Assembly (NCBI RefSeq): GCF_006788895.1
Contig: NZ_VFRA01000001.1
Coordinates: 2,294,001 to 2,358,000 of the forward strand
From: Rhodoglobus vestalii
Lineage (GTDB): Bacteria > Actinomycetota > Actinomycetes > Actinomycetales > Microbacteriaceae
Direction: 5' to 3'
Length of the DNA: 64,000 bases
Position 1 is the stretch's first letter. Each line of letters starts with the position of its first letter. Positions 4,593 to 19,953 of the stretch are shown here, piece after piece. The notes under the pieces were generated by a model, which saw only the letters and a list, made by a program, of their open reading frames with translations, made no database searches and was not told where the DNA came from. Made by a program: the position numbers and the translations under genes.

Positions 4593-4670
4593 TGAATTCC
4601 AGACATTGAGTTTCGTCAGTGGGGGTCACCGACGCAATCGCCGACTAGACTTCCCGGCACTCCCCTCACA

Positions 4671-5320: not shown

Positions 5321-6679
5321 TCAGTTCTTCGTTTGTTCGCGGTTTTGGTAGATGTCGGGCACTCCGTCGCCGTCCGCATCGACGGAGTCGCGTTCGCTGA
5401 TCTTGCGGTACTGTCGGTTTCTGGCGGTGAGCACTACCGCGGCGAGTGCTGCCGCGAGTACCGAAGCGGTAAGGACCGCGACTTTGGCGTGGTCATGTGC
5501 GGGGCTCTCTGGAACAAAGGAAAGCTCCGCAATGAGCAGCGACACGGTGAAGCCGATGCCGGCCAGGAGTCCAACCCCCGCAAGGTCAACCCATTTCAGG
5601 GAAGGATCGAGGCGCACATGCGCGATCCGGGTAACCAACCACGTTGCCGCTGTAATGCCGATCGGTTTGCCGAGCACTAGAGCGGCGATGATCGCGATCG
5701 TCAGCGGGTCGGTGAGCGCGCCGACGAACCCATCGATACCGCCGATTGCGACGCCGGCGGAGAAGAAAGCGAACACCGGTACGGCGAAGCCCGCAGAGAG
5801 CGGCCGGAAGCGGTGCTCAAACTGCTCAGCGAGACCCGGCCCGGCACTCGACCCGCGATCGCGGTGCAGAACTGGAACTGTGAAGGCGAGCAGCACACCG
5901 GCGATTGTCGCGTGAATGCCCGAGGCGTGCATAAACCCCCACGCGACCGCCCCGATCGGCAGCAGGATCAGCCAGGCCGCCCCGGGTTTAATCCCGAAGA
6001 AGCCTCGGTAACGCTGGGCGATGAGACCGTAGATGCCAATCGTCAGCAACGCGAAAGCAAGTGGCACAGGGTCGATGGCGTCCGTGTAGAACATCGCGAT
6101 GATGCCGATCGCGAGGAGGTCATCGACGACCGCGAGCGTAAGCAGAAAGATGCGCAGTGAGGAGGGCAGGTGTGAACCGATCAGCGCGAGCACGGCCACC
6201 GCGAACGCGATGTCGGTTGCGGTCGGGATCGCCCATCCGTTCCTCAACTCCGGGTTCTGCGAGACGATCGCCAGATAGATCAGCGCCGGAACAGCTAAAC
6301 CACCGACAGCGGCGGCGATGGGGACGATCGCAGTGCTGAAGCGGCGAAGATCACCGGCAACAAGCTCGCGCTTGAGTTCGAGGCCGACGAGGAAGAAGAC
6401 GATCGCCAGCAATCCATCCGCAGCCCACGCACCTAGGCTCAGGTTCAGATGCCACGGCTCGTAGCCGATTCGGAAGTCGCGCAACGCGAAGTAGGTTTCC
6501 GACCAGGGTGAGTTCGCCCATACCAACCCGACCGCGGCCATCGCGACAAGAAGTGCACCGCCAACGGTCTCCTTGCGCAGAACCGAGCCGATTCGAAGGG
6601 CCTCGGCGTAGCTCCCCGGGGCAGGAAACAGCCCTACTACTCTGCGGAGTCGTGGCGGTTTCGGCGCGGGCTGGGTCAT
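5321..6679 (-). CDS. nhaA: Na+/H+ antiporter NhaA, copy 2 (promoter displaced by IS)
   Basis: This 452-residue NhaA paralogue keeps [14 protein letters not shown] and AVVDDLLAI with the ion-site Asp residues, and has a longer cytoplasmic N-terminus (about 40 residues before the first span) than copy 1. Its C-terminus also carries a Ca2+-loop-like motif, DADGDGVPD (about residues 434-442), inside a hydrophilic tail. The ATG at 6679 has AGGAG at 6687-6691 with 7-nt spacing. The first base of that RBS lies in the CTAG that borders an IS5-type element, so everything upstream of the RBS is now IS sequence. Sequence like the nhaA1 promoter is found 13.2 kb away at 19914-19953, probably its original upstream region. 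Confidence 0.95.
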
Positions 6680-6689
6680 TGATGGGCTC

Positions 6690-7310
6690 CTAGGGCGTGT
6701 CTCCTAATGCCTTAGCCCAGATGATTATGGCCCGGAGGACAACCCCGCCGCGGTAGGTGAGGGCGAGTTTGTCGTAGCGGGTGGCGATGCCACGCCACTG
6801 CTTGAAGACCTCGAAACACCGCTCAATGACGTTGCGGCGTTTGTAGGACACCTTGTCAAAAGTGGGAGGGCGACCTCCGGCTTGGCCACGTCGTTTCCGA
6901 TTGGCGACTTGGTCCGATCGTTCCGGGATCACGGCATGAATGCCACGATCCCGGAGCATTTTCCGATTAGCTTTGGACGAATACGCTTTGTCACCCATCG
7001 CTCGATCCGGCGTCGTGCGAGGCCGACCCCCGCCGAGCCGAGGCACTCGCAGGCTCCCCAAGACTTCGGGGAACATCGGTGAGTCACCGCCCTGCCCCGG
7101 TCCCAGCAGAATCACCAACGGTCGAAGATTCGCGTCACACAACGCGTGAATCTTCGTCGTCAATCCGCCGCGTGACCGGCCAATTGCGTGGTCAGCAGGC
7201 TCAGTGAGCAGATTCGTGTAGTTCTGAAGTTCCCCCTGTGGTGCGCGGAAGATTGGTGCCGTGCTGGTGGGCGCGGTTGACCGTGGAGTCCACGGACACC
7301 TCCCAATCAA
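6690..7310 (-). CDS. IS5-type transposase, C-terminal frame (orfB)
   Basis: This frame holds most of the catalytic domain. It reads [15 protein letters not shown], then [22 protein letters not shown] (second catalytic Asp) and [14 protein letters not shown] (catalytic Glu). Codons upstream of about 7222 translate to non-family sequence, so the real protein is made by fusion with the upstream frame rather than from an independent start. The two frames differ by +1 (or -2). The stop codon TAG lies in the terminal CTAG. The product acts on the IS ends by cut-and-paste DDE chemistry. Confidence 0.8.
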
Positions 7311-7587
7311 TCAACCCAGCAGCGTCAGCCTGCGAAAGCAGCCGGGTCATAATGGCGTCCCACGTACCGTCGCCACTGAAACGCCGGTGACGTTTCCAGA
7401 CGGTCTGCCACGGACCAAAAGATTCCGGCAAATCCCGCCAGGGAATCCCCGCCCGATACCGATAAATGATGCCTTCCAGAATGCGGCGGTGGTCTTGGAA
7501 CGGACGACCCGGGCAATTCTTCGAGGACGGCATCAACGGCTCAAGGCGAGCCCACTCACTGTCAGACAACACGGCAGCACGAGACAT
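7201..7587 (-). CDS. IS5-type transposase, N-terminal frame (orfA)
   Basis: The 128-residue frame starts MSRAAVLSDSEWARLEPLMP, a typical DUF4096-like N-terminal domain of IS5-family transposases, continues PGRPFQDHRRILEGIIYRYR and GIPWRDLPE, and ends after the first catalytic Asp region [13 protein letters not shown]. It stops at 7201, while the continuation [13 protein letters not shown] is in the +1 frame. I see a GGGGG run near 7231-7236 but no classical -1 heptamer, so the break may be either programmed shifting or a true mutation. The complete inverted ends argue that the element may still be functional. Confidence 0.8.
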   Translation of the reverse strand: MSRAAVLSDSEWARLEPLMPSSKNCPGRPFQDHRRILEGIIYRYRAGIPWRDLPESFGPWQTVWKRHRRFSGDGTWDAIMTRLLSQADAAGLIDWEVSVDSTVNRAHQHGTNLPRTTGGTSELHESAH

Positions 7588-7653
7588 GGATTAAGTCTGT
7601 CAGACAGGCCCGGCAGCATTAGGAGACACGCCCTAGTTGTCTGACTGTAGAGG

Positions 7654-7685
7654 GACCGCCGAGGTATCCCGGATAATTGGCGGTC
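7654..7685 (-). terminator. possible hairpin at the end of the mrp operon
   Basis: GACCGCC (7654-7660) and GGCGGTC (7679-7685) form a 7-bp inverted repeat about 20 bp after the stop codon of the last operon gene. No T tract is seen. Confidence 0.4.
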
Positions 7686-7704
7686 AGGCGCGACTCGCTT
7701 GCAT

Positions 7705-8226
7705 TCAGAGCCCTGCGAAGGCTTTGGACCATCGTCGATGGTATTCGCGCTGGGAGATTTCGCCTCTCTCTACCTGCCGTTCAGCCTCCTGAAGTCGGTA
7801 GACGGTGGTGTGTAGTTGGTCGAAAGTGATTTCGTCGTCGAGGTTCGGGCTGATCAGGGACTTCCAGGCTGACGAGGTTGCGAGCCGGCTATTGATGGGT
7901 GCGGCTACCTGTACCAGCGCGATCCATGCCAGGAGGAGGAGGACGGCGGGGCCGATGCTGGCGGTGAGGAGGGAGACTTCGATCAGGGTGACGACGATCG
8001 AGGCTGTTCCGAGGGTGCTGACGGCTGAGATCGGCAGCCAGATGCGGGCGAGGTGGGCGCAGCGTCGGAGTTTCCGGGGGGTGTCGGGCGGATAGATGTG
8101 GACGTACAGGGATTGGTTTCCGTATCGTCCGGTGCTGGAGGAGGAGTAGCCCCATTGGTATCGTCCCTCGAGTGACCATCGGAGCCATCTGCGTAGGGTG
8201 GTCGAGTTCATAACCATGGGTGTCAT
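7705..8226 (-). CDS. membrane protein of unknown function at the end of the mrp operon
   Basis: The 173-residue product has two adjacent hydrophobic spans (about residues 64-84 and 88-109), an N-terminal soluble part with LYVHIYPPDTPRKLRR and a C-terminal amphipathic helix with QEAERQVERGEISQREY. I do not recognise a named family with confidence. Its ATG overlaps the mrpG stop codon by 4 nt (8223-8226), so it is translationally coupled to the Mrp antiporter genes and may be an accessory subunit or regulator. That role is inferred from position only. Confidence 0.7.
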   Translation of the reverse strand: MTPMVMNSTTLRRWLRWSLEGRYQWGYSSSSTGRYGNQSLYVHIYPPDTPRKLRRCAHLARIWLPISAVSTLGTASIVVTLIEVSLLTASIGPAVLLLLAWIALVQVAAPINSRLATSSAWKSLISPNLDDEITFDQLHTTVYRLQEAERQVERGEISQREYHRRWSKAFAGL

Positions 8227-8549
8227 TCCGGGGGTGCGAGGTCGTCGAAGCGGACGTGGCTGAGCTTGGTTCGGGTGAGGTAGGCGGATCGTGCGATGGC
8301 TATGCTGCCGATGGACGAGGTGGCCAGTTGCAGGATGATGATGAGCACCACTTTCACGGTGTCGGTGAGGCTGGGTTGTAGGAGGAGTGCGCCGACGATG
8401 ACGAATACGGTGCCGAGGCCGCCGGCCGTGCCGACGGCGGATATGCGGGTGTAAGCGTCGGGGAATCGCACGATGCCTAGTGCTGCGGTGGCGAAGATGA
8501 GTGCGCCTAGGACGATTACGATGTTGCCGATGAAACTTAGGGCGTTCAT
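8223..8549 (-). CDS. mrpG: Mrp Na+/H+ antiporter subunit G
   Basis: The 108-residue protein carries the PhaG/MnhG pattern: three spans, ALGIVRFPDAYTRISAVGTAGGLGTVFV, and a short C-terminal tail. MrpG is a small subunit of the multi-subunit Mrp complex, which exchanges monovalent cations for protons in the cytoplasmic membrane. It overlaps mrpF by 4 nt upstream and the unknown membrane gene by 4 nt downstream, showing tight coupling of all operon genes. Confidence 0.95.
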   Translation of the reverse strand: MNALSFIGNIVIVLGALIFATAALGIVRFPDAYTRISAVGTAGGLGTVFVIVGALLLQPSLTDTVKVVLIIILQLATSSIGSIAIARSAYLTRTKLSHVRFDDLAPPE

Positions 8550-8806
8550 CGTTTTCCTCTCGTGAGGATGCGGGCCAGTGAGAGGGCGCTGAGGAAGCCG
8601 ACGAGCGAAGCGATGAGGACGATGTCGAACGTCGCTGTGCTTTGGATGCGCACGCCGAAGAGGGCGAGGAGCCCGATCATTCCGAAGAGGAGCAGGTCAC
8701 CGCCGATTGCTCGGTCGGCTTCGGTGGGGCCGACGAGTATTCGGTAGGTTGCGGCGAAGCAGGCGATGACGATGATGCCGATTCCTATGTCGATTCCGAT
8801 CATCAT
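8546..8806 (-). CDS. mrpF: Mrp Na+/H+ antiporter subunit F
   Basis: The 86-residue protein has three spans and the MrpF signature GPTEADRAIGGDLL in the first cytoplasmic loop, followed by FDIVLIASLVGFLSALSLARIL. It is a structural subunit of the Mrp complex. Start and stop codons overlap those of mrpE and mrpG by 4 nt, as expected for the conserved order A-B-C-D-E-F-G. Confidence 0.95.
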   Translation of the reverse strand: MMIGIDIGIGIIVIACFAATYRILVGPTEADRAIGGDLLLFGMIGLLALFGVRIQSTATFDIVLIASLVGFLSALSLARILTRGKR

Positions 8807-9186
8807 TCGGTGATGCCCTTTCGTCGTAGTGCGTTCAGCAGTCGTGTTTCCATGTCGTCGAGTACGTCGCGGAGTTCGTCGGCGTGTACTTGGTACATGC
8901 CGTGCACGAACAGCACGCGCGTTCCTGGATCGGCCTCGTCGTTGTTCATCCCGTCGCTGATGGTGGTGCCGAGTGTGAGGGTGCCGGGGGTCAGCGTAAT
9001 CAGTGCCGCGAGGAGGGTGATTTCCGTGTCGGTGCTGCAGCGTGTGGGGAAGCGGGCGATGCCCGTGGTGGAGCGTTGTCCTGGTGTGAGGTTGTCGTGG
9101 ATGACTGCTCCGTTCGCGACGACGAGTTCTTTGGCGAACCAGGCGCAGAAGCTCAGGAGACGCCAGGGCCAGCTTGCCCAGGTCAT
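8803..9186 (-). CDS. mrpE: Mrp Na+/H+ antiporter subunit E
   Basis: This 127-residue MnhE-type protein is shorter than many MrpE proteins (about 160-170) because the N-terminal hydrophobic segments are reduced. It retains FAKELVVANG and the domain core ITLTPGTLTLGTTISDG, then VLFVHGMYQ and a coiled C-terminus. The ITLTPGT motif identifies the family. It overlaps mrpD (upstream) and mrpF (downstream) by 4 nt each. Confidence 0.9.
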   Translation of the reverse strand: MTWASWPWRLLSFCAWFAKELVVANGAVIHDNLTPGQRSTTGIARFPTRCSTDTEITLLAALITLTPGTLTLGTTISDGMNNDEADPGTRVLFVHGMYQVHADELRDVLDDMETRLLNALRRKGITE

Positions 9187-10718
9187 CGGCCGATCACCGC
9201 GTCCGTGTAGGCGCTCGTATCCAGCAGGCCTGCCGCTGCGGTGTCGGCCAACTGCAGGAGGACGTCTCCGCCGATGCCGAGCAGGATGGTGAGCGCGGCG
9301 AGGATGATGGCGGGGGCGGTGAGGGCAAGTCCGACTCGTGCCTGTAGTGGTGCTTGGACGGTGACGGTGCCGTCGGATGCAGGATGGTCCCGCGGCGACG
9401 CGTGCTCATGATCGTCGGGAAGGTGACCCCAGAAGACACCCGACCAGATCTTCAGCATAGACAGCAGTGTGACCAGGCTGACCGCGAGCATCGCGATAAC
9501 GACGACGATCTGGCCCGCGTCCACGGCCGCCAAGACCAGGGACAGTTTCGCGACGAACCCGGAGAAGGGGGGCAGGCCGGCCATCGAGAATGCGGCGATG
9601 AGGAATACCACCGCGATGAGTGGTTCACGGCGGCCCATCCCGCCGAGCCTGCTCAGCGCACCCGTGCCGTACCGGACCTCGATAGCGCCGGTGGAGAGGA
9701 AAAGCGCTGCTTTCACGATCATGTGGTGAATCAGATAGAAGATTCCCGCGGCCAATCCGGCGCCGGTAAAGAGGGCGATACCGATCAGGATGTAGCCGAT
9801 TTGGCTGACCATGTGGAATGCGAGGATGGATCGTGTCGTGGTCTCGCCGACGGCGGCGAAGACACCGACAATCATGGTGAGGGTGAAGACCGCGATGCCG
9901 ATGCCGAGGAATCTGTCGTCGCCCTCAAAGAGCTGCGCGTAGATGCGGTAGATGGCGTAGATGGCGACCTTGGTGTGCAGACCGGAGAACAGGGCGGTCA
10001 CGGCGGGCGATGCGGAGGGGTAGGTGCGTGCCAGCCAGCCGTGGACGGGTACGACCGCCGCCTTAATCGCGAGAGCGAACAGGCAGATACCGGCGGCGAG
10101 GGCGACCGCGTCAGATTCGTGTGCGGCACCGGCGAGCTCGGCGAGGTTCACCGTCCCGGCCGTTCCATAGATGAAGGCAACTCCGGCGAGGAAGACCGTG
10201 GAGGTAAGAAGGTTCACCGTCACGTAAAGGCGCGCCCCTGTGACCTGGCGCAGGCGTCCCTTGCCGGGGGCGGCAAGCACGAGAAGTGCGTAGGAGGGAA
10301 GAAGCATCACTTCAATAAAGACGAAAAGGTTGAAAAGATCGACCGTCAGCAGGGCACCGTTGACTCCGGCCAGAAGCACCAGGACGAGCGGTGAGAAGAA
10401 GCGGCCGTCCGCTGTTCCCGAGGTGATGGCAAACAGCGAGCACACCGCGGTGAGCAGTCCCGTCGCGGTGAGCATCAGCGCCGTGAACATGTCGGCTGCC
10501 AAGGGGATGGCGATGCCGAACGGCCAGGCGCCGACACCGTGCGCCACCACACCGGTGGTGTTGACGATGCCGATCAATGTGAGGCCGGCGACCATGGAGG
10601 CAGTCGACACGGTCAGGAGGAGTCCGGCCTGAAGTCGCGGGCGCCGGCCCACGGTCAAGAGCAGACCGGCGACCAGGATTGGGGCGGCGGCGAACATGGG
10701 AAGCAGCATCGCGGTCAT
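9183..10718 (-). CDS. mrpD: Mrp Na+/H+ antiporter subunit D
   Basis: This 511-residue NuoM/NuoN-like proton channel subunit has about 14 spans. NLFVFIEVMLLPSYALL carries the TM5 Glu needed for proton transfer in this superfamily, AAVVPVHGWLARTYPSASPAVTALFSGLHTKVA the conserved Lys/His-bearing loop, and IHHMIVKAALF the TM8-like Lys. It works together with MrpA as the ion-translocating core. Start overlaps the mrpC stop by 4 nt. Confidence 0.95.
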   Translation of the reverse strand: MTAMLLPMFAAAPILVAGLLLTVGRRPRLQAGLLLTVSTASMVAGLTLIGIVNTTGVVAHGVGAWPFGIAIPLAADMFTALMLTATGLLTAVCSLFAITSGTADGRFFSPLVLVLLAGVNGALLTVDLFNLFVFIEVMLLPSYALLVLAAPGKGRLRQVTGARLYVTVNLLTSTVFLAGVAFIYGTAGTVNLAELAGAAHESDAVALAAGICLFALAIKAAVVPVHGWLARTYPSASPAVTALFSGLHTKVAIYAIYRIYAQLFEGDDRFLGIGIAVFTLTMIVGVFAAVGETTTRSILAFHMVSQIGYILIGIALFTGAGLAAGIFYLIHHMIVKAALFLSTGAIEVRYGTGALSRLGGMGRREPLIAVVFLIAAFSMAGLPPFSGFVAKLSLVLAAVDAGQIVVVIAMLAVSLVTLLSMLKIWSGVFWGHLPDDHEHASPRDHPASDGTVTVQAPLQARVGLALTAPAIILAALTILLGIGGDVLLQLADTAAAGLLDTSAYTDAVIGR

Positions 10719-11125
10719 GCGAGACGCTCCTCGTCTGTGACGGTCCCGACCAGGCTCGTGCGTGGGAGGCCACCCACGTCAGAGTCACCGTTGTCGACAG
10801 TTTCGTCGTCAGTGGTGTCTTCGTCGACGGTGTCGTCGTCGTGCTTCCCGGTGATGGCGAGGCTGAGGAGGAAGATCGTGATGGAGAAAGCGATCACGAT
10901 CGCCGTGAGCACGAATGCTTGCGGGAGGGGGTCGGCGACACCGGAGGTGTCGTTGAAGGTGCCGAAGGGCGCGGTGCGGCCGGCGGATCCTCCGGACGCC
11001 ATCAGGATGAGGTTGACGGCGTGCCCGAGGAGGATGAAGCCGAGGATCACCCGGAGCAGTTCGCGGCGGAGTAGGAGGTAAACGGCGCCGCAAACAAGCA
11101 ACCCGGCAGAAATGGCCAAAGTCAT
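10715..11125 (-). CDS. mrpC: Mrp Na+/H+ antiporter subunit C with acidic tail
   Basis: The frame is open to 11560, but family alignment and the 4-nt overlap with mrpA (ATG at 11125) fix the start, giving 136 residues. It is NuoK-like: VYLLLRRELLRVILGFILLGHAVNLILMASGG (read in two parts) and DPLPQAFVLTAIVIAFSI with the conserved DPLPQALVLTAIVI-type motif. An added hydrophilic tail of about 45 residues is strongly acidic (repeated D/E/T between about 94 and 117); MrpC proteins usually end soon after the third span. The function of the tail is unknown. Confidence 0.93.
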   Translation of the reverse strand: MTLAISAGLLVCGAVYLLLRRELLRVILGFILLGHAVNLILMASGGSAGRTAPFGTFNDTSGVADPLPQAFVLTAIVIAFSITIFLLSLAITGKHDDDTVDEDTTDDETVDNGDSDVGGLPRTSLVGTVTDEERLA

Positions 11126-13908
11126 CGGAGGGTCCCTTCTTTCGTGCGGATGGGTGTCGTGGAGGTGGCGGGCCCGCTGGTGCGGGTTGTGCGGCTGCGG
11201 CGGTCCAGGCCGAGCAGGTTCAGGGAGGCCAGGACGACACCGATCACGGCGAGGTACACGCCCACATCGAAGAGCAGCGCGGTGGTGAGGTGCATGCCCA
11301 GTACATCGGCGTGCAAGGGGCGAAGGAAGGATCCGTCGACGAAGCCGAGCAGTCCGCTGAGGGTGGCCACGACGATGCCGGCGCCGATGAGCAGGATGTA
11401 GGGCCAGCGGATTCGCGCGGCATCGTCGGTGGGCGCGGCGAGGTAGACCAGAGCAAACCCTGCGCCGCCCACCAGCGCTGCGATGAAGCCACCGCCGGGA
11501 TCCTGATGACCGCGCAACAGCAGAAGCAGCGACAGGAGAATTGTCAGCGGTCCGGCCCATCGTGTCAGCGACTGGGCAAAGACCGAGTTGTGCCGGGCAT
11601 TCGCCAGTGGGGAGTCTTCGTCTATTGCTGTGTCGTCAACGGCCGGGGTGATGGTGCGTCGTGCCGAGAGGAGCGCGGCGACGGCGACGCCGGCGACGCC
11701 GAGAACGGTCAGCTCGCCCAGCGTGTCGAGCGCGCGGAAGTCGACCAGAATCGTGTTGACAATGTTGGCGCCTCCGGTTTCGTTTTCGGCGTTGCGGAGG
11801 TAGTAGTCGGCGGCAGTGGACAGTTCGCGGCGCCCGGTGAAGGCGATCACTCCCAAGGTCGTGGCCACGCCGGCCGCGATGGCGACCGTCAGGGACGATA
11901 TCCGTCGACGCACGCTGTCGCGGCGGAATCGTCGCGGCAGCCGGCGCAGAACCAGGACCAGAACGCAGATGGTGAGGATCTCCACGAGCAGCTGCGTCAG
12001 CGCCACATCGGCGGCACCGAGCCAGAAGAACCACAGCGTCATCGCAAACCCGATCACGCCCACGACGACGACGGCAGCCACCCGGGTGCGGGCCAAAACG
12101 GTCGCTGCCGTTCCGACGAGGATCAGGGACACCAGGACCCAGTCCAGCGGGTGGGTGGGATCACCCACGATCGGCGGCAGCTCTCCGAGGAAAATCACCC
12201 CCACCCCCGCGATCACCAGAAGCGACAGGACGGGAATTAGCAGGTGATGTCGGGGGGCGCTGGATGCGCTGAGCCGAGCCACTGACGCGCCGAAGCCGAT
12301 GATCGAGGCCCGTATGCTGTCGACGACGCTGAGTGCATGGAACGGGAAGCGCACACGCGACATGACCGGGTCGACTTTCGCGCGCAGGAGGACCAAAGCG
12401 GTACCGGTGCTCAGTACCAGGATGGAGATGAAGAGTGCCGGTGTCAGTCCGTGCCATAACTCCAGTTCGGGCGTGATCGCCGCTCCGAGCGCGTTCGAGC
12501 TGGCCGCGCCGACGAGCGGATCCAGAAGTGCCGGTACGAGGCCGAGCGTCAGCCCGGCCGCAGCCCACACGGCTGGTGCCGCCCAGAAGAGCGCCGGGGC
12601 TTCACCGACCAGCCGTCCGGCCCGGCCACCAGCGGCGCCGATGACGAACCGGCCGGCGTAGGCAAAGGTCAGCACAGCAGTCAGCGCCGCGACGCTCGTG
12701 ATCACCGGAGCCAGCCACTCGGGTCCAGGGGCTGACAGAAGCGCGACGAACATGCTCTCTTTACTCACGAAGCCCAGCAGCAGCGGTACGCCCGCCATCG
12801 ATAGTGCAGCGAGGGCCGCGATCGTGAGGGTCACGGGCATCCGCACGTTCAGCCGCGCGAGCTCCCTGATGTTTCGCGTGCCTGCCTGGTGATCGAGGAT
12901 CCCCACCACCATGAATAGGGCTGCTTTGAACAGGGCATGGGCCACGGTGTGCACGACAGCCGCGGTCAAGGCCTCCGGTGTGCCCACACCGATCAGCAGA
13001 ACCAGCAGGCCCAGCTGACTGATCGTGGAATACGCCAACAGCTCCTTTAGGTCGGTGCGTCGTAAGGCGGCGATACCACCGAGGAGCGCCGTGACGGCGC
13101 CGCTGTAAATCAGCAAGATCGACCAAAGTGCGTTGTCGTTCAAAACGGGCGAGAACAACAGCAGCAAGTAGATGCCCGCTTTGACCATGGCGGCCGCGTG
13201 CAGGTAAGCACTTACGGGGGTGATCGCCACCATCGAGTCGGGAAGCCAGGCGTGGAAGGGGAACTGCGCGGATTTTGTAAATGCAGCACCGACCAGCAGC
13301 ACCACAATCCAGGTCGTGACCGAAGAATTCTCCGTCCAGAACGACGCCTCCAGAATCTCACTGATACGGGTGGTGCCGGCTGCGACAGTCATCGCCGCTG
13401 CTGCTCCAAGCAGGCTCAAGCCACCTAACGCGGTAACCATGAGGGTACGGATCGCCGGCTCACGCGCATGCGCCCCGGAGCGGGCGATGAGGAAGAACGA
13501 GCAGAGCGTCGTCGCCTCCCACGCCACAAACAGTAAAACGACGTCGTCCGCCAGGACGAGCACAAGCATGGCCAACGCGAACACGCTCATCAAGACGTAG
13601 AAGCCGGTATGGGCGCCACGGCCCAGGTAGCGTGCCGAGTAAAACAGCACACCCGCACCAATTACGGTCACGAGCAGACCAAACAGCAAGCCCAGACCAT
13701 CCAGTCGCAGCGCGAAGCTGACACCGATGCTTGACATCCACGGCCACACCTCAGCCCTGGGGCCCGCTGCGGACGCCACAACGAGCAGACCACCGGCCGC
13801 TAAGAGCGGAAGCGCGAGAACAAAACCAATATTGCGGCCGAGAGTTCGGCCAAGCACCATAGCTGCCACGGTCGCAGCAGCGATGAGTGCGATGCACCCG
13901 ATGAGCAT
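11122..13908 (-). CDS. mrpA: Mrp Na+/H+ antiporter subunit A fused to B domain
   Basis: This 928-residue protein is the largest Mrp subunit. Residues 1 to about 500 form a NuoL-like channel (VAWEATTLCSFFLI, AQFPFHAWLPDSMVAITPVSAYLHAAAMVKAG), about 600-760 form the DUF4040/MbhE-like part, and about 790-928 hold the MrpB domain (RGHQDPGGGFIAALVGG). No separate mrpB follows, so this is a group-2-type operon with fused A-B. AAAGGTGG lies 4 nt before the ATG. The complex exports Na+ (possibly K+ or Ca2+) in exchange for protons and matters under salt and alkali stress. A long structured leader precedes the gene. Confidence 0.95.
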   Translation of the reverse strand: MLIGCIALIAAATVAAMVLGRTLGRNIGFVLALPLLAAGGLLVVASAAGPRAEVWPWMSSIGVSFALRLDGLGLLFGLLVTVIGAGVLFYSARYLGRGAHTGFYVLMSVFALAMLVLVLADDVVLLFVAWEATTLCSFFLIARSGAHAREPAIRTLMVTALGGLSLLGAAAAMTVAAGTTRISEILEASFWTENSSVTTWIVVLLVGAAFTKSAQFPFHAWLPDSMVAITPVSAYLHAAAMVKAGIYLLLLFSPVLNDNALWSILLIYSGAVTALLGGIAALRRTDLKELLAYSTISQLGLLVLLIGVGTPEALTAAVVHTVAHALFKAALFMVVGILDHQAGTRNIRELARLNVRMPVTLTIAALAALSMAGVPLLLGFVSKESMFVALLSAPGPEWLAPVITSVAALTAVLTFAYAGRFVIGAAGGRAGRLVGEAPALFWAAPAVWAAAGLTLGLVPALLDPLVGAASSNALGAAITPELELWHGLTPALFISILVLSTGTALVLLRAKVDPVMSRVRFPFHALSVVDSIRASIIGFGASVARLSASSAPRHHLLIPVLSLLVIAGVGVIFLGELPPIVGDPTHPLDWVLVSLILVGTAATVLARTRVAAVVVVGVIGFAMTLWFFWLGAADVALTQLLVEILTICVLVLVLRRLPRRFRRDSVRRRISSLTVAIAAGVATTLGVIAFTGRRELSTAADYYLRNAENETGGANIVNTILVDFRALDTLGELTVLGVAGVAVAALLSARRTITPAVDDTAIDEDSPLANARHNSVFAQSLTRWAGPLTILLSLLLLLRGHQDPGGGFIAALVGGAGFALVYLAAPTDDAARIRWPYILLIGAGIVVATLSGLLGFVDGSFLRPLHADVLGMHLTTALLFDVGVYLAVIGVVLASLNLLGLDRRSRTTRTSGPATSTTPIRTKEGTLR

Positions 13909-14153
13909 CAGTCCACCTTTGAGTCAATTCGACATAGAAGTACGTCGAACCGAGCAGGGCTGTGCTCACCGGCGCTAAGCGCCTGATGACCTCGGATCGA
14001 CGTTAAATGTCGATGACCGCGGGAGAGGAACCCGCAAGAATGGCACCCCAGCTGGAGAGGTAGCCGTTAGTTCCCGGGTGCGTCATAACCCAAGACGTCG
14101 GCAGAAAGCCGACGTTGGACGCACTGGAAGTTAGGAACATAACCCTTAGTCTA
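13909..14153 (-). promoter_or_regulatory. hairpin-rich 5' leader of the mrp operon, candidate riboswitch
   Basis: On the reverse strand a putative -10 TAGACT (14148-14153) gives a leader of about 230 nt before the mrpA ATG. It can form many stems: an 8-bp stem ACGTCGGC/GCCGACGT (14095-14102, 14108-14115) enclosed by TGCGTC/GACGCA (14079-14084, 14118-14123); GGCACC/GGTAGCC with one bulge (14042-14065); GCGGG/CCCGC (14019-14035); ATCGAC/GTCGAT (13996-14014); and GGCGC/GCGCC (13971-13983). This density suggests a cis-regulatory RNA. No ligand class can be assigned by eye; c-di-AMP, Na+ and Li+ riboswitches are known classes that control ion transporters. Confidence 0.5.
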
Positions 14154-14260
14154 CAGAAAATCCGTGCGTGACCCATTCCGCTCCTGCGACACAAGGCCAC
14201 CTGGTCGTCGATATGGAGCCAAAGAATGCTCGTCCACACGGTGCAGCGCATGCCTGTTAA

Positions 14261-14330
14261 CGCCGACTGAAAACAGGGCCAAAAACGCCGACTGAAAACA
14301 GGGCCAAAAACGCCGACTGAAAACAGGACC
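14261..14330 (+). repeat. three 25-bp-spaced terminal repeats at the IS21 left end
   Basis: A 20-bp unit CGCCGACTGAAAACAGGGCC occurs at 14261-14280, 14286-14305 and (one mismatch) 14311-14330, separated by AAAAA. Two inverse, less conserved copies lie at 16374-16393 and 16399-16418. These are the multiple transposase-binding sites typical of IS21 ends. Confidence 0.9.
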
Positions 14331-14347
14331 ACCCAGCAGTATGAAGG

Positions 14348-15583
14348 GTGATCAAATTGGACGATTGGGCGGAGATTCGCCACCTGCATTCGACAGAGAA
14401 AATCTCGAAGCGGGAGATAGCACGACGACTCAGCGTGTCTCGAGGAACGGTCGACCGGGCCTTGGCCCCGGACCGGGCCCCGACCTATCAGCGAGCAGGC
14501 AGCGGGTCGAGTTTCGACGAGTACGCGCATGCCGCACGGGCACTGTTGGCGGCCACGCCAACTATGCCAGCGGCAGCCATCGCGGAACGCGTCGGCTGGT
14601 CAGGATCGGAGTCGCTGTTCCGGTCGAAGATCGCTGAGATCCGGCCCGACTACCGGGTCCCGGACCCTGTTGACCGGCTCGTGCACCCGCCGGGCTTCCA
14701 GATGCAATGCGACCTCTGGTTCCCCCACGACGACATCCCCCTCGGCCACGACCAGGTTGACCGGCCACCCGTGCTCGTGATGACGTCAGCGGCGTCCGGA
14801 TTCATCCAAAGCCGCATGCTGCCGACACGGATGACATCAGATCTGCTCGGCGGCATGTGGTCTCTGCTCGAGGAAGCACAGGCCGTTCCCTCGCGGCTGC
14901 TCTGGGACAACGAGTCCGGGATCGGGCGCGGGAAACTAACCGAGGCCGCCGCCGCGTTCGCCGGTACGCTCGGGTGCGAGATCAAACTTTTGAAGCCCCG
15001 CGACCCGGAGCCCAAGGGCATGGTCGAACGCATGAACAGGTTCTTTCGGGGCAGGTTCATGCCCGGTCGCACATTCGCGTCTCCAACGGATTTCAACGCC
15101 CAGATGGCCGACTGGTTACCGATCGCGAACAGCCGGTTTTCCCGTGCCCGCCGAGGCCGCCCGATCGATCTGGTCACCACCGACAGGGCAGCGATGCGGG
15201 CACTGCCGCCAGTGGCTCCCGAGGTGCTGTTTCGCAACATCGTGCGCCTACCAAGGGATTACATGGTCCGTGCCTTCAGCAACGATTACTCCGTCGACCC
15301 GGCCCTGATCGGGCGTCTCGTCCACGTCACTGCGGGCTTGGACACGGTCAATATCCACCACGACGGGCTCCTCGTGAGCTCGCACCCGAGGCAGTGGGCG
15401 CGGCAGCTAAACATCATCGATCCCGCTCATGTTGCTCGGGCTGGTGAGCTGCGGAATCAGCACCGGAGCCAAGGCCGGAAGATGCCCGTGTTAACGGTCG
15501 TGGAGACCGCGTCGCTGGATCATTACGACACCCTTTTCGGCCTCACACCCGACGCAGCGGCCATCGTGGCGGTCGCCTCATGA
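14348..15583 (+). CDS. istA: IS21 transposase IstA
   Basis: The 411-residue protein has an N-terminal helix-turn-helix (SKREIARRLSVSRGTVDRAL, about residues 19-40) that binds the end repeats, followed by an integrase-type core with Asp in MQCDLWFP, Asp in LLWDNESG and Glu in PKGMVERMNRFF. It catalyses strand transfer of the element together with the ATPase IstB. It starts at a GTG and its stop codon overlaps the istB start by 4 nt. Length is somewhat below the 500-residue form of some IS21 members but usual for the short IstA group. Confidence 0.95.
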   Translation: MIKLDDWAEIRHLHSTEKISKREIARRLSVSRGTVDRALAPDRAPTYQRAGSGSSFDEYAHAARALLAATPTMPAAAIAERVGWSGSESLFRSKIAEIRPDYRVPDPVDRLVHPPGFQMQCDLWFPHDDIPLGHDQVDRPPVLVMTSAASGFIQSRMLPTRMTSDLLGGMWSLLEEAQAVPSRLLWDNESGIGRGKLTEAAAAFAGTLGCEIKLLKPRDPEPKGMVERMNRFFRGRFMPGRTFASPTDFNAQMADWLPIANSRFSRARRGRPIDLVTTDRAAMRALPPVAPEVLFRNIVRLPRDYMVRAFSNDYSVDPALIGRLVHVTAGLDTVNIHHDGLLVSSHPRQWARQLNIIDPAHVARAGELRNQHRSQGRKMPVLTVVETASLDHYDTLFGLTPDAAAIVAVAS

Positions 15584-16356
15584 GCGGCGTAGTGGTTGGT
15601 GGGTCGGAGACCGCCTCGCAGATCGAGTACTACTCCCGGGCGCTCCGGGCGCCGCGGATCAGCGACGCGTTCCGGCGCCTCGGCGACCAGGCCCGCGACG
15701 CGGGCTGGTCCCACGAGGAATACCTCGCCGCGGTCCTCTCGCGGGAGGTCTCGGAGCGGGAAGCGTCGGGGTCAGCGCTGCGGATCAAGGCTGCACGGTT
15801 CCCAGGATTCAAGACGTTGGAGGACTTCAATTTCGACCATCAGCCGTCCGCCGACCGGAACCTGATCGCGCATTTGGGTTCCGGGGTTTTCCTCACCGAG
15901 GGCAAGAACGTGGTCCTGTTGGGGCCGCCAGGGACGGGGAAAACGCACCTCGCGATCAGTCTGGGCGTCAAGGCCGCACAGGCCGGACACCGGGTCCTAT
16001 TTGATACCGCAGTCGGTTGGGTCAACCGCCTCCAAGAAGCTCACTCCCGCGGGAAACTCGACGCAGAGCTCAAGCGACTGCGTCGCTACAGCGCACTGAT
16101 CGTTGACGAAGTGGGGTATATCCCGTTCGATCAGGACGCTGCGAATCTGTTCTTTCAACTCGTCTCAAGCCGGTATGAACAGGCGTCGCTGATCTTGACG
16201 AGCAATCTGACTTTTAGCCGGTGGGGTGATGTTTTCGGTGGCCCGACAGTGGCATCAGCGATGATCGATCGGATTGTTCATCATGCCGATGTCATCAGTC
16301 TCAAGGGTGCCAGTTATCGGATGAAGAACCACCAGCTGCCGTCAACTACGGCATAG
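15580..16356 (+). CDS. istB: IS21 helper ATPase IstB
   Basis: The 258-residue AAA+ protein is DnaC-like. Walker A is GPPGTGKTHLA (about residue 110) and Walker B is ALIVDEVGYIPFD, followed by the sensor-I-like LILTSNLTFS. IstB assembles on DNA and activates IstA at the target site. Its ATG overlaps the istA stop by 4 nt. It ends 18 bp before the right-end repeats. Confidence 0.95.
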   Translation: MSGVVVGGSETASQIEYYSRALRAPRISDAFRRLGDQARDAGWSHEEYLAAVLSREVSEREASGSALRIKAARFPGFKTLEDFNFDHQPSADRNLIAHLGSGVFLTEGKNVVLLGPPGTGKTHLAISLGVKAAQAGHRVLFDTAVGWVNRLQEAHSRGKLDAELKRLRRYSALIVDEVGYIPFDQDAANLFFQLVSSRYEQASLILTSNLTFSRWGDVFGGPTVASAMIDRIVHHADVISLKGASYRMKNHQLPSTTA

Positions 16357-16429
16357 TAGAAACACACAACCGTGGCCCTGTTTTCAGTTGGCGAAAGTGG
16401 CCCTATTTTCGGTTGGCGTTAACAATGCC

Positions 16430-16914
16430 AGAGCGAGCAGTCCTTGGCAGAATTCGACAAGTACCTATGCGAGACAAGAAGCGGCCGTTTGGTGGCATTT
16501 AGGCGGGGTGCAGGAGGCGCTGCAACTACACCGCCCTTTAGCCAGACGGTGAACGAACGCTCTTCGAGCCGACTCACCGTTGCGCGCGGTACCGAGCTTC
16601 GTGCCCGTTAGCCGAACCCCCTACGGGACGGTCACCTGTCTCGCAGTCGCTCATCGTGGGCAGTGGAACAGGACGCAATGCTGTGCGTCACCGCGTCATT
16701 ACTACTTCGACCAGAGACTCTGACGCGGGCCGCCTGGAAGCAGCCAGCGGCCAGCGATCACCCCGAAACTTCGGGACGATCGTTCACGTCCTTTGGCCTG
16801 GTGCGCTCGTGACCGTATTCTGCTCGGCGCTGCAAACGATCGAGCCTTAGACCGGGCACCGTCCGAAAGGCGCCAGCGAGCACGCGAAAGATTGCTCCGC
16901 TGTGAGTGATGGTG
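16430..16914. other. 485-bp stretch between IS21 and IS3 without a recognisable gene
   Basis: This was the natural continuation of the sequence upstream of mrpA before IS21 inserted at ATGCC. I see no frame with family resemblance, no strong hairpin and no tRNA. It may be remains of DNA acquired with the mrp operon or the far edge of a lost neighbouring gene truncated by the adjacent IS3 element. Confidence 0.4.
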
Positions 16915-16946
16915 GGGACTGCTGAAGCTTTGGTTGACTCGGTTCC

Positions 16947-17836
16947 TTAGGCCGCCAGTGTGACGGTCTTTTTCATTATGGTCTCGTATTCGATCGGTGT
17001 CAGCCTCCCAAGTCGGCGTTGTCTCCTTCGCCGGTGGTAGGTGCCCTCGATCCAGTTGATGATCTCGAGTCGGAGCTCGTCGCGGGTGACCCACGAGCGT
17101 TGATTCAGGACATTTTTTTGCAGCAACGCGAAGAAGGATTCCATGGCTGCATTGTCACCGCATGCCGCGACTTTCCCCATCGAGCCCAGCAGCCCGTTCT
17201 GGGCGAGTGCGCGCACGAATTTCCGTGACCGAAATTGGCTTGGGATCCTCGGTCGGAGTGAACAATCACTGCCGTGGGGTGCTCCCGGTGGGTGACGGCC
17301 ATGGTGAGCGCGTCAACGGCCAGCCGAGCTTTCATCCTCGTATCGATGGAATAGCCAACGATGCGATTCGAGAACACATCTTTGATTGCGCAAAGATAAA
17401 GCTTTCCCTGACTCGTTTTGTGTTCCGTGATGTCGGTGAGCCACAGCTGATTTGGCCTCGACGCGGTGAAGACCCGCTGCACCCGATCGTCGTGCACGGG
17501 TGGGCCTGGTTTCCGGTTGCGGCCCTTCTTCTTCGCGAACACGCTCCATAGTCGCTGCTGGGAACAGAGCCGCCAGACGCGGCGTTCGCTGGCGGTGAAG
17601 CCCAATTCGGCGAGTTCGTCAGCGATGAACCGATACCCGAACGTCGGGTCATCGGCGTGCGCATCGAACGCGGCGTTAATAAGATGAGCATCGTCCCAGT
17701 CCCGGGCGGAGACGGGGTTCTTGACCCATTTATAGAACGCTTGCGGGGAGAAGCCCAGCACCCGGCAGGCCACCGTGATGGGAACCCGTATCGGGGCATC
17801 CAGCGCGGCAAGGTCACGGACCAGCGGGAACATCAT
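16947..17836 (-). pseudogene. IS3 element A transposase orfB, frameshifted
   Basis: The integrase domain is split over two frames. The first (17836 down to about 17240) reads through WLTDITEHKT (first Asp) and IVHSDRGSQ (second Asp), then becomes nonsense and stops at 17105. The second (from about 17235 down to 16947) continues with VRALAQNGLLGSMG, NAAMESFFALLQ (catalytic Glu) and the C-terminal RRRQRRLG. The junction contains CCAAGCCAA (reverse strand, about 17235-17243), a near-tandem duplication that looks like a 5-bp insertion. The element is therefore probably inactive. Confidence 0.85.
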
Positions 17837-18132
17837 TTTGGGAGCTGCGCCTGAGACAGATACGCCACAGCGCGCCGCATCACCTCGGCTTCCTGCTCGA
17901 GCAGGCGGATACGTTTGAGCGCCTCCCGCAACGCCACCACATCACCAGCAGCTCCGGCTCCGGTCGATGGTCCGACGAGGCCACGCTCCTGCAACTCGGC
18001 CGCGCGCATCCACGTCGACAACGCAGACTTCGACACACCGAAGTCCTTCGCGATCTGCCGCTGCGTTGCCGCGCCCTGCTTCGCAACCGCGACGACATCG
18101 CGCTTGAACTCATCCGTGTAATTCTTCGGCAT
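17833..18132 (-). CDS. IS3 element A orfA (helix-turn-helix protein)
   Basis: From ATG 18132 this gives 99 residues: MPKNYTDEFKRDVVAVA, a helix-turn-helix with RQIAKDFGVSKSALSTW, and a C-terminal leucine-zipper-like helix (LREALKRIRLLEQEAEVM). The end of the frame contains the -1 slippery heptamer CCCAAAA (reverse strand, 17836-17842) right before the stop, where the orfB start ATG also overlaps. OrfA alone binds the ends; the OrfAB fusion is the transposase. Confidence 0.9.
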   Translation of the reverse strand: MPKNYTDEFKRDVVAVAKQGAATQRQIAKDFGVSKSALSTWMRAAELQERGLVGPSTGAGAAGDVVALREALKRIRLLEQEAEVMRRAVAYLSQAQLPK

Positions 18133-18241
18133 GATTACCATCCTCCCGCATCGCAAAACGATGCAGTCCAAGTGACCTGCCCCACAGTTTGGTTACCTTG
18201 TAACTTTTGGATTTTTGGGCCTTGCTGGAAGGCTGTGAAGC

Positions 18242-18538
18242 ATGCCAAGACCGTATCCTGCCGAGTTCCGCGCCCGCGCTGTCGCGTTGATGCGTGCCGG
18301 GAAACCAATCGCGACGACCGCTGCTGCGCTGGGTGTGAGCCAGTCGTGCCTGCATAACTGGATCCGACAAGATCAAGTAGATCGTGGTGATCTGCCTGGT
18401 GTCACGACGTCGGAGAGCGCCGAGCTGAGACGAGCGCGCAAACGCATCCGTCAGCTGGAGTTGGAGGTCGAGATTTTGACGAAAGCATCGCATTTCTTGG
18501 CGGAGGATGAGCCTCACCCAAAAGGGTTCACCCGGTGA
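18242..18538 (+). CDS. IS3 element B orfA
   Basis: The 98-residue protein starts MPRPYPAEFRARAVALMRAG and has the helix-turn-helix TTAAALGVSQSCLHNWIRQ followed by a coiled helix (ELRRARKRIRQLELEVEIL). The slippery heptamer CCCAAAA lies in the correct phase at 18517-18523, 15 bp before its stop codon, allowing -1 frameshifting into orfB. It differs clearly from orfA of element A, so the two are different IS3 elements rather than copies of one. Confidence 0.93.
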   Translation: MPRPYPAEFRARAVALMRAGKPIATTAAALGVSQSCLHNWIRQDQVDRGDLPGVTTSESAELRRARKRIRQLELEVEILTKASHFLAEDEPHPKGFTR

Positions 18539-19395
18539 TCGACAGGTTGGTCGACGCCGGGCTACCTCCGAAGGTGTGCTGTCGTGTCCTCGGGGTCAGC
18601 AGCCCCGGCTACTACCGTTACCGGAACCGGCCGCTCTCACCCACGCAGATGCGCCGGAAGTGGCTCACCGGCCTGATCCGTGAAGTCCACGTTGCCTCCC
18701 GTGGAACCTACGGCTCCCGTCGCGTTCACGCTGAACTCACCCTGGGGATGGGAGTCAAGGTTAGTGAGCGACTGGTCGCGGTGTTGATGAGTTTGGCCGG
18801 AATCTACGGACTCCCGGGCCCGGCGCGCGTGAAACGACTGCATGGGATTGTCACGGCCGATGACCTGGTGAATCGCAAGTTCCACCGCCTGTCGCCCAAC
18901 GAGCTGTGGGTCACGGACATCACGGAACATCCCACGCGAGAGGGGAAGGTTTTCTGCTGTTGCGTGCTGGACTCGTTCAGCCGAAGGATCGTCGGCTGGT
19001 CAATCGATACTGTCCAAGATGCCAACCTGGTGGTGAACGCCCTGGATATGGCGATCAAGAATCGCAGGCCAGAGCCTGGCAGTGTTGTTCACGCCGATCA
19101 CGGCACCCAGTTCACCTCTTGGGCCTTCACCAACAAGATTCGCTCGTCCGGCATGATGCCATCCTTCGGTTCTGTCGGGGATGGACTCGACAACGCGATG
19201 ATGGAATCCTTCTGGTCGTCGATGCAGATTGAGATGCTCAACCGGAAGAAATGGAAAACCCGGCTCGAGCTCGCGAACGCAATGTTCGACTACATCGAGA
19301 TCTTCTACAACCGACAGCGACGCCACTCCGGCCTCGGCTATCGAACCCCAATCGAGTACGATCTAACATACGAAAACCAATCAATCTCCGCCTGA
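18535..19395 (+). CDS. IS3 element B transposase orfB
   Basis: The 286-residue protein starts at a GTG overlapping the orfA stop by 4 nt. It has the HTH_21 segment SRGTYGSRRVHAEL and an rve integrase core: Asp in LWVTDITEHPT, Asp in VVHADHGTQFTSW and Glu in NAMMESFWSSMQ, then the C-terminal FYNRQRRHSGLGYRTPIEY. All catalytic residues are present. It is normally produced as an OrfAB fusion by -1 frameshift. Confidence 0.93.
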   Translation: MIDRLVDAGLPPKVCCRVLGVSSPGYYRYRNRPLSPTQMRRKWLTGLIREVHVASRGTYGSRRVHAELTLGMGVKVSERLVAVLMSLAGIYGLPGPARVKRLHGIVTADDLVNRKFHRLSPNELWVTDITEHPTREGKVFCCCVLDSFSRRIVGWSIDTVQDANLVVNALDMAIKNRRPEPGSVVHADHGTQFTSWAFTNKIRSSGMMPSFGSVGDGLDNAMMESFWSSMQIEMLNRKKWKTRLELANAMFDYIEIFYNRQRRHSGLGYRTPIEYDLTYENQSISA

Positions 19396-19465
19396 AACTC
19401 CACACCTCAACAGGTAACTGAAACATGGGGCAGGTCAAAGAATCAACCAAACCTTCAGCAGTCCC

Positions 19466-19894
19466 TTGGTGATTCTGCTGGGACCGGGGCAGGGCGGTGA
19501 CTCACCGATGTTCCCCGAAGTCTTGGGGAGCCTGCGAGTGCCTCGGCTCGGCGGGGGTCGGCCTCGCACGACGCCGGATCGAGCGATGGGTGACAAAGCG
19601 TATTCGTCCAAAGCTAATCGGAAAATGCTCCGGGATCGTGGCATTCATGCCGTGATCCCGGAACGATCGAACCAGGTCGCCAATCGGAAACGACGTGGCC
19701 AAGCCGGAGGTCGCCCTCCCACTTTTGACAAGGTGTCCTACAAACGCCGCAACGTCATTGAGCGGTGTTTCGAGGTCTTCAAGCAGTGGCGTGGCATCGC
19801 CACCCGCTACGACAAACTCGCCCTCACCTACCGCGGCGGGGTTGTCCTCCGGGCCATAATCATCTGGGCTAAGGCATTAGGAGACACGCCCTAG
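19466..19894 (+). pseudogene. truncated inverted IS5 copy (3' part of transposase and right end)
   Basis: From 19466 (TTGGTGATT) the sequence is almost identical to the IS5 element at 6690-7124 in opposite orientation, with one visible residue change (SDQ to SNQ). It retains the last 142 codons, including the second Asp ([10 protein letters not shown]), the catalytic Glu ([10 protein letters not shown]) and the complete terminal repeat at 19874-19893, ending in CTAG (19891-19894). The N-terminal two-fifths and left end are lost where IS3 element A abuts. Confidence 0.92.
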
Positions 19895-19953
19895 ATCGGT
19901 CGAGGGAAAGAATGTCGACCAGACTTCCCAACTCACCACAATTAACTCTACCG
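19895..19953 (-). promoter_or_regulatory. probable displaced promoter region of nhaA2
   Basis: On the reverse strand a TAGAGT box (19945-19950) and the block containing GGGAAGTCTGGTCG resemble the nhaA1 promoter region (TAGAAT at 4671-4676, GGGAAGTCTAGTCG). Removing everything between the two CTAG sites (6690-6693 and 19891-19894) would place this region about 35 bp upstream of the nhaA2 start, with a single CTAG inside TAGGAG. The rest of the stretch to 20174 shows no gene. Confidence 0.55.

Follow-up and report, generated by a model that had tools for sequence, protein, structure and literature searches.

How did nhaA2 of Rhodoglobus vestalii come to lie directly beside an insertion sequence (IS), and which sequence originally controlled it? 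The window analysed here is a stretch of 64,000 nucleotides (nt), positions 2294001-2358000 of a one-contig 2.84-Mb genome. It carries two genes for NhaA Na+/H+ antiporters, nhaA1 and nhaA2, and a complete mrp operon enclosed by two inverted copies of an IS5-family element. The start of nhaA2 lies 10 nt left of the complete copy. In the initial annotation, this IS-bounded island was proposed to have separated nhaA2 from its promoter. Our sequence comparisons support well the assignment of 19895-19953, on the far side of the island, as the severed 5' leader and promoter of nhaA2 itself. The conserved part of this block, 19895-19937, is a member of the actinobacterial leader GGNGN-GYC-GGGAAGNCUGGUC-GRC.

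The starting point was the claim that a block at 19914-19953 resembles the nhaA1 promoter. The similarity exists but is weak alone: the local alignment score is 28 against a shuffle maximum of 26, and a second stretch of the window, near 21046-21160, also scores 28. As sufficient proof, this similarity was therefore rejected. The resemblance is nevertheless solid, because both sites belong to the leader family. A leader model (R1), whose training set contained 19895-19937 and, although 4621-4663 was absent, the leader of a genus relative, matches the window significantly at two places, 19895-19937 (E 5e-8) and 4621-4663 (E 7.9e-8). The next match in the whole genome has an E value of 2.3 (150 of 2960 first-look candidates scored). 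The pattern GGGAAGTCTNGTCG likewise occurs twice in the genome, in the nhaA1 leader and in the orphan block.

The best orthologue of nhaA2 among 398 family genomes (own genome aside) is found in another genus, at locus L174 (80% at the amino acid level); nine other genomes of the genus are in this set and reach at most 56%. In L174, leader, Shine-Dalgarno sequence (SD) and ATG are contiguous. Joining the nhaA2 start via one CTAG to the outer flank gives an alignment score of 67 with L174 (shuffles 10.4, standard deviation 4.4, maximum 25). With the inner flank at 7637 in its place, the score is 8 (shuffles 8.1), and the IS sequence now present upstream of nhaA2 scores 6. The alignment runs without gaps across the joined junction (TCGACCGATCCCGGAG against TCGACCGATCTAGGAG). 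The comparison with L174 thus agrees with the proposal that the outside flanks, joined through a single CTAG, would restore a natural sequence. The leader-to-start spacing is 33 nt in the joined site and 32 nt in L174. Among 177 distinct leaders, that of L174 is nearest to the orphan (score 61; next 57); for the variable part alone it comes second (19 vs 21 for L073). The nhaA1 leader of the same genome scores 26. The orthologue's contiguity, the joined-flank alignment and the nearest leader together uphold the separation of nhaA2 from its promoter. The description of the block as a promoter stands in part: it is predicted to hold the severed 5' leader and promoter, but its chief component is a conserved leader element placed where transcription is predicted to start.

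Two inverted IS5 copies enclosing the whole mrp operon were found as annotated. The arms 6690-7121 and 19463-19894 are inverted, 432 nt long and 99% identical, and between them lie the DUF6611 gene and mrpG, F, E, D, C and A. The 947-bp element has four full genome copies, 6690-7636 and three others, and belongs to the IS5 family by DUF4096 and DDE_Tnp_1 in two overlapping frames, with inverted ends. As in a composite transposon, one IS lies at both ends of the unit. The island MrpA is foreign to the genus: it matches genus genomes at no more than 42% at the amino acid level (17 of 27 genomes with any match), and no close relative of the island mrp was found in the 26 other genus genomes searched. 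The genus-type mrp appears as a long 37-42% match in 16 of the 27 genomes, own included. A second mrp operon of this type lies elsewhere in the R. vestalii genome (G000:C1:1340296-1343190, L246), at about 40% to the island MrpA.

Within the family, 8 of 396 genomes (own included) match the island MrpA at E 1e-200 or better, the best at 73%. The two closest mrp relatives (L243 and L244) carry DUF6611 after mrpG, as the island does. DNA similarity to L243 covers 8275-14130 with one break; as it reaches 14130, about 220 bp from upstream of mrpA arrived together with the operon. MrpA of the island type occurs once in the genome, so a second site of the unit, as a composite transposon could give, was not found there. 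A plasmid search with 6690-14254 gave 261 records, none covering 80% of the query. Among the 30 listed, 29 match the IS only and one matches mrp at 64.6%; 15 of the 261 have their best place at 80-95% and lie outside those listed.

The following history would account for these results. In the ancestor, a promoter immediately to the right of 19937 would have driven leftward transcription of nhaA2, and a short leader, AGGAG and ATG would have been contiguous via one CTAG. An IS5-bounded segment with the genus-foreign mrp operon would then have inserted at that CTAG. nhaA2 would have kept its SD, with promoter and leader now 13.2 kb away behind an IS5 copy. An IS21-type and two IS3-type elements would have arrived later between the right IS5 and mrpA, and the inner half of the right IS5 would have been lost. 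nhaA2 would now depend on read-through from mrp and IS5, all on the minus strand, and would be freed from leader control. Because the outer IS ends are both preserved, as is one set of transposase open reading frames (ORFs), the unit may still be mobile.

One-step composite transposition is the simplest form of this history, plausible but unproven, and its mechanism and order are what we infer from the present arrangement. The annotated CTAG borders, the nhaA2 ATG and the AGGAG overlapping CTAG are all present. However, each of the four full IS5 copies carries CTAG at its two termini, and so does the partial copy at its outer terminus. We thus rejected the borders as a sign of composite insertion, since any two independent IS5 insertions would look alike. 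The proposal of a composite-transposon-like insertion at CTAG hence stands as to the split and the foreign mrp, but a one-step and a stepwise course are not separable. In the stepwise course, one IS5 would have entered the CTAG between leader and SD, and recombination or another IS5 event would have brought mrp afterwards. The presence of CTAG at every full copy agrees with it, as do the one private substitution in the left copy and the one in the right remnant, compared with three identical copies elsewhere; the right copy no longer has its inner part, so that its original inner junction is unreadable. Nevertheless, this course needs more events, and the outer flanks keep their original relative orientation. 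Moreover, a circle recombining into a single IS gives direct, not inverted, copies. We consider the stepwise course a real possibility, though on balance improbable. A different reading would make nhaA2 the last gene of an mrp-DUF6611-nhaA2 operon split by one IS5, with the block at 19895 left from another, lost nhaA. mrp, DUF6611, the IS5 transposase gene and nhaA2 do all lie on the minus strand. However, the inner flank from 7637 aligns with the orthologue's leader at chance level, no nhaA follows DUF6611 in the 1.1 kb (L243) and 4.3 kb (L244) readable there, and of the leaders compared, the one closest to the orphan belongs to the best nhaA2 orthologue. This ancestral operon is very improbable and was rejected on these three grounds.

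What is the severed leader? The pattern that recognises it is present in 17 of 27 genus genomes. Among 19 listed sites, 13 lie directly upstream of an nhaA match, one (G041) has the same downstream sequence and one is the orphan; L137 and L139 precede genes that are of CBS type by eye, and L130 and L141 have neither GGNG nor nhaA. Invariance in leader sets collected by pattern is there by construction. A free measure is given by 105 nhaA homologue loci with at least 200 nt upstream, chosen by protein similarity alone. The 13-nt loop lies within about 300 nt upstream in 79 of them (64 exact, 15 with one substitution), and a reversed control gave no match even when two substitutions were allowed. 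Every one of the 79 has GGNG ahead of the stem and retains the three stem pairs. Of 120 homologue loci, 88 carry the strict core no farther than 400 nt upstream of the match; in the 83 loci with a callable start, the leader-to-start distance has a median of 35 nt (interquartile range 33-43, range 12-76), compared with 33 nt at the joined site. A class-wide scan, with arms free except the last base, found matches in 250 of 374 genomes; the backward control matched once in each of five genomes. The phylum scan with a stricter pattern gave 77 of 296 genomes and one control hit. No leader was found in the viral contigs searched. At L093:11018, inside the matched nhaA region, the 13-nt core recurs with CGC/GCG arms that are complementary, but GGNG is missing.

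Three parts make up the leader: a stem of 3 bp, the 13-nt loop that it encloses and that hardly varies, and a complement farther downstream. Among 135 non-redundant sites selected for the core, all have G at -5 relative to the stem, and 134 have it at -4 and 134 at -2. A TAnnnT hexamer begins 17-20 nt ahead of the stem in 108 instances, 64 of them at 18 nt. Because these G positions and the TAnnnT distance are nearly constant, transcripts would start at about GGNG. All 155 core sites with free arms keep the three stem pairs, although L124-L142 and L210-L239 among these loci were fetched with patterns fixing part of the arms. Of 150 listed class-scan matches, 146 are fully paired, three have one mismatch and one contains an N. 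The paired arms are GTC/GAC three times, TCC/GGA twice, and GCT/AGC, the orphan genome's own GTT/GAC and GCC/GGT once each; the rest are GCC/GGC. Alignment A1 holds 76 sequences picked from the 135 for having the downstream complement. Stem pair 7-23 covaries (CG 63, UA 12, AU 1), with 13 double changes against 1.9 in shuffles, a number reached in none of 500. A conserved leader with a covarying stem, a general mark of riboswitches, is thus found here. The complement of GGUCG, CGACC, is enriched downstream: 71 of 158 leaders have it (12.6 in shuffles), and 25 have the longer GTCGACC (0.6 in shuffles). Support for the complement comes from the enrichment tests in the full sets only, because A1 was preselected for it. 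Both a hairpin competing with the 3-bp stem and a pseudoknot with it were considered; the 7-bp hairpin GGUCGRC/GUCGACC showed no gain over shuffles. Of four leaders folded singly, L174 alone is clearly more stable than its shuffles (z -5.7), the other three having z -0.5 to -1.4.

The genes behind the leader were counted as ORFs. In 30 loci of the phylum scan (L210-L239; 37 of 53 candidate ORFs scanned), NhaA was found 19 times, Mrp/NDH-type proteins 3, CPA1 exchangers 3, P-type cation ATPases 2 and H+-PPase 1, and further CBS 1 and alpha/beta hydrolase 1. In 24 of 30 class-scan loci (L247-L276; 45 of 52 ORFs; five repeats of the phylum set and the own orphan excluded), the counts were NhaA 18, CPA1 3, citrate-type transporter 1, ABC 1, CBS 1 and MazG 2. 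Both sets together give 37 NhaA ORFs in 54 loci. Other leader-adjacent genes are, by eye, presumably TrkH-like and ABC ATPase genes. The leader stands ahead of mrpA in four of seven family relatives (L205, L206, L208, L209); it is weak in L207 (E 0.45), and L203 and L204 have none at E 1. Model R1 found no leader element at the island mrpA.

As the common gene theme is Na+ and H+ traffic, a sensor of Na+, Li+ or pH suggests itself. The leader, which begins at the predicted transcript start, would most probably be an RNA that controls Na+/H+ transporters in response to cations or pH. In its boldest form, to which we give somewhat less than even confidence, the severed block would be an undescribed, actinobacteria-wide ion-sensing riboswitch acting from +1 and controlling NhaA, Mrp, CPA1, P-type ATPase and H+-PPase, and the IS5 island would be a natural knock-out that freed nhaA2. 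In that case, the orphan leader would have been left pointing toward the newly arrived mrp operon. nhaA2 appears to have been cut from its control element at a base-exact place, and the locus is therefore a natural test of the element's role. As an acquisition driven by IS elements, the island itself is nothing unusual. The most interesting result is the leader, whose small size would allow in-line probing directly. Were Na+, Li+ or pH its signal, it would show how much of a phylum sets its antiporters.

A near-constant distance from a -10-like hexamer would also be expected if the motif were a DNA operator at the transcription start, bound by a regulator, rather than an RNA; covarying 3-nt arms would likewise be expected in a DNA palindrome. 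However, the arms enclose a loop without palindromic symmetry, and a DNA site has no need of the enriched CGACC and GTCGACC downstream. We consider an operator unlikely, though less so than any coding role. For the latter, the leader would encode a short conserved peptide with a GUG start in GGUG, and GGTG is indeed present in 106 of 158 non-redundant leaders. The other 52 have GGAG, GGCG or GGGG, although GGAGTG leaders still offer GUG two bases later. The variable loop base and the stem changes would alter residues, while the stem arms change together. A leader peptide was rejected on the GGNG variation, the residue-altering changes and the paired arm changes, and its probability is minimal.

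The explanation we prefer is thus an insertion that split nhaA2 from its leader, the leader being most probably a control RNA. Leader identity, orthologue contiguity, spacing and the lack of a close genus mrp were computed; the loss of control, the RNA mechanism and the ligand are proposed from them. As a whole, we hold this explanation to be highly probable. Several results weigh against it, in addition to the uninformative CTAG borders. A relative with nhaA2, the 19895-19953 block and the GH65 gene contiguous via one CTAG, as predicted by the initial annotation, was looked for in 40 genomes and not found; five of them besides the own genome match the empty-site query, all only inside the GH65 gene (query 291-505). 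The 19 kb around the best nhaA2 orthologue (L245, G395:C1:765000-784000) has no match to the window GH65 or mrp. The two genes thus do not have their surroundings in common, and nhaA2 may have travelled together with its leader. A plasmid search with nhaA2 gave 92 records, all at 60-80%. The stretches readable past DUF6611 are short. As for the control RNA, 26 of the 105 nhaA homologue loci have no leader above chance. The covariation shuffles leave relatedness in place, and the loop GGUC is fixed by the pattern in the alignment, which puts covariation of the second helix outside the test. Single folds had suggested that 5' GGNG pairs with the SD region in a closing helix; this was rejected, as a complement is present in 65 of 158 leaders against 60.0 for shuffled partners.

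The features of the locus are collected in Table 1. The nhaA1 protein is of genus type, with 84% at the amino acid level to a Salinibacterium protein and 82% to a Rhodoglobus metagenome-assembled genome, its closest named relatives. mrpC probably starts near 11125. The outer IS3-type element has no second full-length copy in the genome. TGGTG flanks it at 16910-16914 and 19467-19471, and only the right side is IS5 sequence; the repeat could be a target duplication or chance. About 485 bp at 16430-16914, between the IS21-type and IS3-type elements, were joined to 14131-14254 before the IS21 arrival. A 175-aa (amino acid) ORF at 14003-14530, between mrpA and the IS21 start, extends into the IS21-type element and has no Pfam match. 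Promoter and terminator scans stayed within about one standard deviation of shuffles.

Table 1 Features at the nhaA-mrp locus (positions in the window)
Feature	Position	Strand	Evidence or remark
nhaA1, genus-type NhaA Na+/H+ antiporter	3333..4592	-	Pfam Na_H_antiport_1 E 3.2e-117
Intact nhaA1 leader element	4621..4663	-	Model R1 44.1 bits, E 7.9e-8; pattern match
nhaA2, NhaA antiporter, 452 aa, no internal stop, leader apparently lost	5321..6679	-	Pfam E 1.1e-124
nhaA2 Shine-Dalgarno AGGAG, overlaps CTAG	6687..6691	-	Sequence; aligns with GGAG of L174
Complete IS5-family element, CTAG at both ends included	6690..7636	-	Transposase ORFs 7201-7587, 6690-7310
DUF6611 gene, last in mrp operon	7705..8226	-	Pfam
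mrpG	8223..8549	-	Pfam
mrpF	8546..8806	-	Pfam
mrpE	8803..9186	-	Pfam
mrpD	9183..10718	-	Pfam
mrpC ORF	10715..11560	-	Oxidored_q2 at ORF residues 149-246
mrpA with MbhD, MbhE and MnhB domains	11122..13908	-	Pfam
IS21-type element (istA, istB)	14255..16424	+	5-bp ATGCC target duplication, 14250-14254 and 16425-16429
Outer IS3-type element, interrupted by the inner one	16915..19465	-	Sole full-length match in genome
Inner IS3-type element	18173..19437	+	AAG target duplication
Inverted IS5 remnant, outer end only	19466..19894	+	Two substitutions vs left copy
Orphan leader element, assigned to nhaA2	19895..19937	-	Model R1 45 bits; 24-nt core 19914-19937, complement CGACC downstream
-10-like TAGAGT of severed nhaA2 promoter (predicted)	19945..19950	-	Sequence
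HAD-GH65 fusion gene, right flank of insertion	20175..23378	+	Pfam

IS-bounded composite transposons with inverted ends are known from the Tn10/Tn5 type. The island is alike in that two inverted IS copies enclose a cargo operon, with both outer ends present and the ORFs of one copy apparently whole. It is unlike them in its half-lost right copy and its antiporter cargo, and its transposition as a unit is only a proposal. The IS5 element presumably belongs near the IS427-like group; compared with that group and the IS5 family, nothing notable differs.

For the leader, Rfam 15 gave no match in the window at the gathering score, and six leader loci stayed without a match even with E allowed up to 5. 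With the L174 and L049 leaders at E up to 10, five unrelated families appeared far below their thresholds (best E 0.079, 21.2 of 100 bits), which we take as chance. The covariance models of the Li+-I, Li+-II and Na+-I riboswitch families did not match the leader in the tested stretches. No sequence or description of the leader was found in the literature searched, which left subscription papers, preprints and supplements outside, and the accessible parts of two motif-discovery papers concern other motifs (PMC8632094, PMC11109978). The Li+-I and Li+-II riboswitches (nhaA-I and nhaA-II motifs) are, in the accessible text, similar as structured leaders commonly found before nhaA (PMC9646797); they differ in that the Rfam matches obtained for this leader do not include them. 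The main text of that paper does not contain the word actinobacteria, as far as it was searched. The Na+-I (DUF1646) and Na+-II riboswitches are similar as leaders of Na+ transport genes, according to the accessible text (PMC9337991), and they too are absent from the Rfam matches of this leader. The DUF1646 motif is described there as relatively rare, with 308 representatives, whereas the pattern of the leader described here is present in 250 of 374 class genomes.

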